Both the position numbers and the translations under genes were made by a program. Of a stretch of DNA of 34,999 bases, positions 28,465 to 30,812 are shown piece after piece. The stretch is from Myxococcales bacterium. Its GTDB lineage: Bacteria; Myxococcota_A; Polyangia; Haliangiales; Haliangiaceae. Under the pieces are notes generated by a model. That model ran no database searches, had not been told where the DNA came from, and was given only the letters and a program-made list of their open reading frames with translations. The stretch spans positions 1 to 34,999 of the forward strand of contig JAEUJX010000112.1 of the NCBI GenBank assembly GCA_016794545.1, written 5' to 3'. Every line of letters begins with the position of its first letter. Within the stretch, counting starts at the first letter, position 1.

Positions 28465-29220
28465 TTAGTAGCAGGAGCCGCCGCAGCTCGCGTTGTTCGA
28501 CATGAACAGGTAGTCGTCCGACGCGTTGGAGAAGCTGCCGAGCTGGTAGTCGTGCAGCGCGCAGTCCTTGGAGTACAGCGTGCTACCCACGCACGGCGGG
28601 AAGCTCGTGCCGCCGCAGCCCTGGCCGCAGCGACCGGCGCAGCCGTTGGCGGGCGACGTCTTGCAGCTGCAACCCTTGCCTGCCGTACGGTAGTAGCCGT
28701 TGCCGATGTGCTGGTACTGGCACGTCGGGCTGATCGTCGTGTTCAAGCCGCCCGTCTCGTGCGCGAACTCGTACGGCGCGAGCTCCTCGCCGGTCGGGAC
28801 GATCATCATCAGGTTGCCAGCGCGGATGACGAGGTTCTCGACCGTGGTCCGCTCGGGCTCGTCGCCGCCGACCATGCCCTGCAGGTTGGTCACCAGCATG
28901 GCCACCAGGCGGAGCTGCGCCTGGTCGAGTGGATCGCCGTTGGGGATGATCTGGCCTTCGCCACGGTTCTTGTCCACGTGGAGCGCGACCTGCGTCGTGC
29001 CGAAGTCCCACGTGATGTCGACGACACCGGCTTCGACCTCGGTGGCGAACAGGTGAACGCGATCGCCACCGCCCATCATCGTGGCCTCGATCGTCGTGGC
29101 GCTATGGCCGAGCAGCGCGAACTGATCCTGTGGATCGGGCGCGTTGACCTGCTCGTCCTTGGTAGTGCAGGCGCCGAGCGCGAGTGCGAGTCCAGCCACG
29201 AGACAGAAAGCGGTGTTCAT
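28465..29220 (-). CDS. Lipoprotein with Cys-rich PLA2-like C-terminal region
   Basis: A 251-residue exported protein. ATG 29220 begins signal MNTAFCLVAGLALALGAC (C18) and is preceded by a G-rich Shine-Dalgarno-like run. The N-terminal 150 residues are beta-rich (VHLFATEVEAGVVDITWDFG and following). The last 85 residues hold about ten cysteines: GCSCKTSPANGCAGRCGQGC, then PPCVGSTLYSKDCALHDYQLG. The C-x3-H-D-Y arrangement after a Cys/Gly-rich stretch resembles secreted phospholipase A2-type active sites (C-x2-3-H-D-x-C) and similar bacterial proteins, but the usual calcium loop is not evident. Function is unproven. Confidence 0.72.
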   Translation of the reverse strand: MNTAFCLVAGLALALGACTTKDEQVNAPDPQDQFALLGHSATTIEATMMGGGDRVHLFATEVEAGVVDITWDFGTTQVALHVDKNRGEGQIIPNGDPLDQAQLRLVAMLVTNLQGMVGGDEPERTTVENLVIRAGNLMMIVPTGEELAPYEFAHETGGLNTTISPTCQYQHIGNGYYRTAGKGCSCKTSPANGCAGRCGQGCGGTSFPPCVGSTLYSKDCALHDYQLGSFSNASDDYLFMSNNASCGGSCY

Positions 29221-29429: not shown

Positions 29430-30812
29430 GTGGCACCGGGGCTCCTCATCCTTGCCATCCTGCCGGTCATCGGCGGATCGACGAGTGATGACCAGCGCGT
29501 GGTCGCGCTCCGCCTCCCGGCGGGGTGCGGGCAACCGCCCGCCGTTCAGTGCACGGGGACCCTGCTGTCGCCGCGTGCGGTGCTGACCGCCGCGCACTGC
29601 ATCGAGAACACCCCGCTCGGGTCGCTCGAGGTGGTGTCGGCCACCGATGCTGGATCGGCCGAGGTCGCGGGGGTGCGGGTGGCGATGGGGTGGACGGCGC
29701 CCGATGGCGCCGACCTCGCCGTGATCGCGTTGACCGAGCCGGCGATCGGCGCGCCGGTGGCGTCGATCGGCGACATCCCGGACGCGCAGGCGCTGATCGG
29801 GACCAACGTCGTCGTGATCGGATATGGGCTCGATGGGGAAGGCGGCTCGGGGCTCCGCCTGGCCGGCGTCTCGACGATCCGCGCGATCGATCCCGGCACG
29901 ATCGAGGCGATGCCGGGACCATCCCTGGCATGCTCGGGTGATAGTGGAGGTCCCGTGCTACTCGATGACAAGGTGATCGGAGTGAGCTCGTTCGGTGACG
30001 CGGAGTGCGCGATCTCCGCCACCAGTGCGCGCGCGGACACGCAGCGTGCGTTCATCGCGGGTGCGATCGCGAATGCGGAGCAGCTGCCGACCGGCACGCC
30101 CGCGCCCGGGGAGGTCGATTGCGGACCGCCGGACGATCGCGGTTGTCACGCTGGCGGCACGTCCGGTGCCGGCGCGATCCTCCTCGTACTCGCCGCGCTC
30201 GGCGCGATCCGGCCTCGGCGGGCGCTGCTCGCGTTCGCGGTGCTCGTGCTCGCGGCGTCGTGCCAACGCAGCCAGAGCAGCCCGAGCAGCCCGGAGTGCA
30301 ATGGTGGCGTCGCGCACGGCGCCAAGCCGCCTAAGGGATCGCTGTTCTGGTGTGCCGATGGGAGCGGCCGCAAGCACGGCCTCTACCAGGAGTGGTTTCC
30401 GAACGGCACGCTCAAGGTCGATGCCATGTACCGGGCCGGCAAGGCCGACGGGACGTTCGTCGCGTACCACGACAGCGGCAAGCGCAAGGAACAGGGCCAG
30501 CACGAGGGTGGTCTCCGCGTCGGACGGTGGCAGGAGTGGCACCCCGACGGGTCGCTCCGTCGAGACGCCGAGTACCTTCCGGGCGGTGAGGTCCGGTTCA
30601 CGACGTACCACGAGGGCGGCGGGCCACGCTGGGTGGTGGGTGCGATGCGCGCGCAGAAGGAGCACGGGCACTTCGTCGAGTGGTCCCGCGGCGGCACCAA
30701 GATCGCCGAGGGCGACTTCGAGGCCGGGCGCAAGCTCGAGAACTGGACGTTCTGGAACGACGACGGCACTCCGTCCGCGGAGCCGCGCGGCATGCTGTTC
30801 ACGGGCGAGTAG
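29430..30812 (+). CDS. Trypsin-like serine protease fused in frame to YwqK/MORN-type lipoprotein
   Basis: A 460-residue frame from a GTG. Residues 1-13 are hydrophobic and lead directly into an I-G-G-S mature trypsin-like N-terminus (residue 14 on). The S1 catalytic triad is complete: H56 (TAAHC), D95 (GADLAVI) and S172 (CSGDSGGPV). Residues 231-264 look like a MYXO-CTERM-type surface signal: G238-C239, a hydrophobic helix ([12 protein letters not shown]) and R261-P-R-R264. Without a stop, a second lipoprotein-like signal follows ([16 protein letters not shown]278). Residues 300-450 contain YwqK/MORN-2 repeats of the form G-x-W/Y-x-x-W/Y-x-x-x-G ([29 protein letters not shown]). It looks like two neighbouring exported-protein genes joined by loss of a stop, or a real fusion. 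No separate strong start codon is visible for the second part. Confidence 0.78.

Follow-up and report, generated by a model that had tools for sequence, protein, structure and literature searches.

An internal MYXO-CTERM-like tag joined to a lipobox helix in a protease and MORN-repeat fusion gene of Haliangiaceae

The MYXO-CTERM tag usually lies at the C-terminus of a protein and the lipoprotein signal of the Lgt/LspA pathway at the N-terminus; a lipobox helix is the signal that LspA cuts after lipidation. In the published model, an exported MYXO-CTERM protein is held by its helix, the Arg cluster being cytoplasmic; its cysteine is probably lipidated, and a myxosortase cuts it (PMC11980579). 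MXAN_5598 of Myxococcus xanthus carries an atypical internal MYXO-CTERM, which Guo, Haft and Wall (2025, PMC11980579) ascribed to the fusion of two genes, suggesting that the N-terminal part undergoes processing and anchoring. Literature searches returned this paper alone for internal MYXO-CTERM tags, no paper for an internal lipobox, and nothing relevant for internal signal peptides and polyproteins. We analysed a stretch of 34,999 nucleotides from a Myxococcales genome (assembly GCA_016794545.1, contig JAEUJX010000112.1; hereafter the window). A preliminary description of this DNA had reported a lipobox helix directly after a MYXO-CTERM-like signal in one frame; translation bore this out at the same coordinates.

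The fusion gene and its signals

The gene was a single frame of 460 aa at 29430..30812 (+), with a GTG start and a stop at 30810-30812, and its translation met no stop codon before that one. The short, hydrophobic N-terminus of 13 residues (29430..29468, +) was the sole candidate export signal, weak and without a basic n-region. It was followed by a trypsin-like protease domain (29502..30017, +), which matched PF00089 over residues 25-196 with 82.7 bits against a gathering score of 20.6 and gave a trypsin fold in Foldseek. By this score and its catalytic motifs TAAHC, DLAVI, and GDSGGP, the window protein belongs to trypsin family S1. The MYXO-CTERM-like segment (30141..30221, +) consisted of a GC motif (residues 238-239, with Cys239 at 30144-30146), a hydrophobic helix, and R261PRR264, which finished at 30221. 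A second helix (30222..30263, +) began there and closed with the lipobox cysteine Cys278 (30261-30263), forming a candidate internal type II signal. The remainder (30264..30809, +) was a linker and a MORN_2/YwqK-type repeat domain, supported by PF07661 (34.0 bits against a gathering cut-off of 29.6), by the orthologue alignment, and by a beta-rich model. Two cysteines of this domain, Cys290 and Cys308, were invariant in the four-sequence orthologue alignment, and such a pair suggests an oxidising compartment. The AlphaFold model built on that alignment contained the trypsin fold and the beta-rich repeat domain, the latter with pLDDT mostly 80-94 to about residue 380 and lower beyond; helices were placed at 248-257 and 265-276 with low confidence.

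The window tag scored 14.0 bits with TIGR03901, under the cut-off of 20, and appeared only when the frame was cut at the tag. Since 196 residues lay beyond RPRR, in place of the C-terminal location of a MYXO-CTERM, it was classed as MYXO-CTERM-like and internal.

Head-to-head with the fusion gene lay a divergent gene (28465..29220, -), an arrangement found in all four orthologous loci described below. Its product, a putative lipoprotein, was rich in Cys and had the motifs DCxxHD and SDD. Homologues of this neighbour also adjoined trypsin cousins in several other genomes, and two of these adjoining homologues were in the window's own genome. By these two motifs alone the neighbour is reminiscent of phospholipase A2; Pfam and PDB profile searches gave no match for that assignment.

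Orthologues and a possible origin of the fusion

Three full-length fused orthologues with 46-49% identity were found in the same family: L002 (genome G024, MAG TH-Jun18-119), L003 (G018, PRO3), and L004 (G029, UBA2376). G024 and G029 shared one genus and G018 belonged to another, both different from that of the window. At E <= 1e-12 the repeat half was absent from all the remaining 15 genomes in the genus of the window, G010 excepted, where the match was weak (27% identity). All four loci came from MAGs, and the window's genome was an assembly of 780 contigs.

The preliminary description had proposed that orthologues be compared for a stop codon at the junction and for a separate start. No stop was present in L002, L003, or L004. 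A scan for ATG, GTG, or TTG codons at which an independent lipoprotein could begin with a normal signal found none in the window, L003, or L004, leaving the lipobox away from any protein N-terminus there, and an internal ATG in L002 that yields MRRRGTMFTVGVAAAAALFAGC, a good lipoprotein signal. An open junction by itself is weak evidence, as 54% of shuffled junctions were also stop-free in this high-GC DNA. What goes beyond chance, on comparison of the sequences, is that the frame, the GC cysteine, and the lipobox cysteine were kept in four of four loci while the Cys-to-Cys span changed (39, 51, 22, and 24 residues in the window, L002, L003, and L004 set).

The form of the junction varied among these loci. 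The window and L002 had two helices, those of L002 being parted by ARRTRRRTMRRRGTM, and in both the GC motif, transmembrane helix, and Arg-rich end were present by sequence. L003 and L004 had one helix, which started at the GC motif and ended in the lipobox; acidic residues lay ahead of it and basic residues behind it, and it had no Arg cluster right after it. The L002 tag was above the cut-off of TIGR03382 GC_trans_RRR (17.1 against 15.85) and below that of TIGR03901 (16.6 against 20), and the L003 tag scored 15.1 with TIGR03901 against 20. The lipobox with its small residue and cysteine was found in all four loci (LAAS-C in the window, LFAG-C in L002, LVAA-C in L003, and LLVA-C in L004); in L003 and L004 it and the cysteine pair of the repeat domain were kept despite the unfavourable helix charges. 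Inspection of the four N-termini found very short hydrophobic stretches in the window and L003, and no hydrophobic peak or signal peptide in L002 and L004. Start sites may have been misjudged, or export may depart from the model. Across the trypsin-like protease group (the window, L002, L003, L004, L006, L016, and L020), signal peptides were very short or missing just ahead of the IVGG-like mature start.

The nearest unfused cousin of the protease was L006 (G022), next to a homologue of the divergent neighbour gene. L006 ended with a terminal MYXO-CTERM-like tag, and a different lipoprotein gene started 10 nt after its stop; if a gene pair of this kind lost that stop, a junction of the window type would arise. 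An unfused protease/MORN pair was not found in 30 family genomes, 317 class genomes, or contig searches. The comparison supports reading the window gene as the product of a MYXO-CTERM serine-protease gene that joined, in frame, a lipoprotein gene downstream of it. Stop-codon loss, part of one of the two readings offered in the preliminary description, was in keeping with the open junction in four of four loci, and because the junction is open in all of them the loss is, by this alignment, old and not recent. In L024 (G032), a protease frame from 1252 did not end at its tag-like helix and Arg residues but continued through a further hydrophobic segment ending SSAHA to TPR-like repeats, possibly a further fusion.

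Recurrence of the tandem junction

An unrelated family of proteins of ~1,350 aa (about 1,200-1,500) carried a MYXO-CTERM, an Arg cluster, a linker, and a lipobox in one frame, between a lipoprotein-like N-terminus and a further C-terminal domain (loci L109, L110, L111, L113-L162, and L197-L200); Pfam gave no match for it. One member was encoded in the window's own genome (L109:3457-7485 (-), G000:C198). The order of GC, Arg cluster, linker, and lipobox Cys was read in 45 loci (26 + 15 + 4 from closed genomes), nine loci of two surveys having escaped the search pattern and not being among those read. The internal MYXO-CTERM of this family exceeded the curated cut-off, with 20.8 and 27.8 bits. 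The L109 junction region matched 139 of 309 class genomes, mostly in one frame without a stop, and a full paralogue matched 91 of 235 phylum genomes, some in one half only. In L198, from the closed genome G385, the linker was almost absent, as in the window: GRRRRFAALIAALFLGTVGC. A split homologue was present in L195 (G486): its first gene stopped after RRRRRGEDQ, and 21 nt further a new ATG opened the second. L109 also had an internal ATG for a separate lipoprotein, and no start codon was found in the linker of L121, L156, or L161.

Two surveys of MYXO-CTERM hits were then read for what follows the tag. Among 27 readable hits in six genomes, 24 were terminal and 3 internal, and all three internal tags ran into a lipobox helix. 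A further 20 hits comprised 14 terminal and 6 internal tags (2 running into a lipobox, 4 into a type I AxA signal); this survey was partly picked for long frames, so the share of internal tags does not give a base rate. Across the 47 hits, 9/9 internal tags ran into a second signal peptide, five of type II and four of type I, and the lipobox cases of both surveys were members of the second, unrelated family. In MXAN_5598-like proteins (L183, L175, L176, L177, and L180), the internal MYXO-CTERM ran into a type I (AxA) signal, with a barrel/OmpA-like part beyond it; by eye, L183:4987-12795 (-) read as adhesin-like repeats, MYXO-CTERM, AAPAAAQ, a barrel-like part, and an OmpA-like end.

Internal MYXO-CTERM tags were already known, and the tandem-signal junction of the window gene recurs in at least one unrelated family. 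We tentatively suggest, at slightly less than even odds, that an internal MYXO-CTERM acting as stop-transfer and a type I or II signal acting as restart, cut on both sides, form a general route to two exported proteins per frame in Myxococcota, with the window gene as an independently formed example.

Proposed processing, alternatives, and known systems

The best explanation, to which we assign a probability of about 0.6, is that an old fusion kept both signals and makes a polyprotein that yields two lipoproteins once myxosortase and LspA have cut it. We infer export, topology, lipidation, and both cleavages of the fusion protein as follows. The protease half would be exported until the MYXO-CTERM helix stops transfer and leaves RPRR in the cytoplasm, and the second helix, acting as an internal type II signal, would restart transfer and bring the repeat domain out as well. 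The tandem helices would form a hairpin with both domains outside and cuts on both sides: myxosortase would cut at the GC tag (Cys239), while Lgt would lipidate and LspA cut at Cys278. The outcome would be two separate proteins, each with a lipid anchor, while the helical hairpin is discarded. The window's genome encoded a myxosortase (Mrt_core 106.2 against a cut-off of 100) and two LspA genes. A whole-genome search did not find Lgt (PF01790) in the window's own MAG (G000); because the relatives search found Lgt in 33 of its 36 genomes, the absence is probably an assembly gap.

This polyprotein reading is supported because the orthologues are fused and stop-free with both cysteines kept over four spans, because no start for a separate lipoprotein exists in the window, L003, or L004, and because the genome encodes myxosortase and LspA. 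Further support comes from the recurrence of the junction in the unrelated family, with one split homologue, from the second signal after every surveyed internal tag, from the 10 nt between protease stop and lipoprotein start at L006, and from the oxidising compartment suggested by the cysteine pair. The reading is weakened by the helix charges of L003 and L004, which would favour an orientation that hides the lipobox, by N-terminal signals that are absent (L002 and L004) or short (window and L003), and by a window tag under the MYXO-CTERM cut-off together with the missing Lgt. The single-helix orthologues and weak N-terminal signals do not fit it.

It is unlikely, though worth serious attention, that the protein stays uncut, with protease and repeats tethered to each other by a membrane hairpin (or one helix) and the signals left as relics of fusion. 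Working signals are not a requirement after fusion, and the window and L002 do have both helices with an Arg-rich loop between them; however, relics would be expected to decay, whereas the cysteines and lipobox persist in orthologues of 46-49% identity in which the number and spacing of helices vary, and the second family retains both signals in many bacterial families. The deliberate double membrane anchor of the preliminary description is not supported as the conserved feature, given the single helix of L003 and L004 and the known sorting or cleavage signal types to which both elements belong. Its placement of protease and repeats on the same membrane side would fit the Arg-rich inter-helix loop of the window and L002.

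Two overlapping products, with an internal ribosome start also making the lipoprotein separately, could be produced from the ATG of L002 and likewise from that of L109, but the want of a usable ATG, GTG, or TTG in the window, L003, and L004, and of a linker start in several second-family members (L121, L156, and L161), makes this improbable. Less probable still is a fusion in decay, with the C-terminal part cytoplasmic or the protein mis-targeted and the lipobox disused in the single-helix state: the conserved catalytic motifs, repeat domain, paired cysteines, and lipobox oppose it, against the helix-flanking charges in L003 and L004 and the missing N-terminal signals of L002 and L004. The derivation of all four loci from MAGs would allow for an assembly error, which, with a recent stop-codon mutation, was named in the preliminary description as a refutation. 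The fused orthologues rule these out for practical purposes, leaving them a negligible probability: four independent assemblies are in frame with differing junction lengths, the codon-position GC of the junction agrees with that of the remaining gene, and closed genomes carry the analogous junction.

Should the tandem junction function in the proposed way, a single round of translation would give two surface lipoproteins in a fixed ratio, which membrane sorting enzymes would part from each other, and proteins of this kind would escape annotation in which a MYXO-CTERM is expected to be terminal and a lipobox N-terminal. In the single-helix orthologues either end of the helix bears a candidate lipidation Cys, and these proteins could help to test what modifies the MYXO-CTERM cysteine, which was left open by PMC11980579.

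Compared by its published description, MXAN_5598 resembles the window gene in having an internal MYXO-CTERM in one frame ascribed to gene fusion (PMC11980579), but it joins an adhesin to an outer membrane beta-barrel/OmpA part instead of a protease to repeats. A lipobox or second signal is not in its authors' description (PMC11980579), and the MXAN_5598-like proteins found here carry a type I (AxA) signal. TraA/TraB of M. xanthus likewise place a MYXO-CTERM protein gene beside a partner gene, with overlapping ORFs (PMC11980579), but as two genes rather than one frame and with different domains. The MYXO-CTERM/myxosortase system (TIGR03901, TIGR03382; MrtX) shares with the window the GC motif with its invariant Cys, the helix, the basic cluster, and a myxosortase gene in the genome, whereas its tag is usually C-terminal and that of the window is internal and below cut-off. 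Lgt/LspA signal peptides share the basic residues, the hydrophobic helix, and the small residue and Cys at its end, but are usually N-terminal and not about 265 residues into a frame. The second fused family (L109, L110, L111, and relatives) has the same MYXO-CTERM, Arg cluster, lipobox helix, and further domain in one frame, and differs from the window gene in its unrelated domains without a Pfam match and its far wider distribution.
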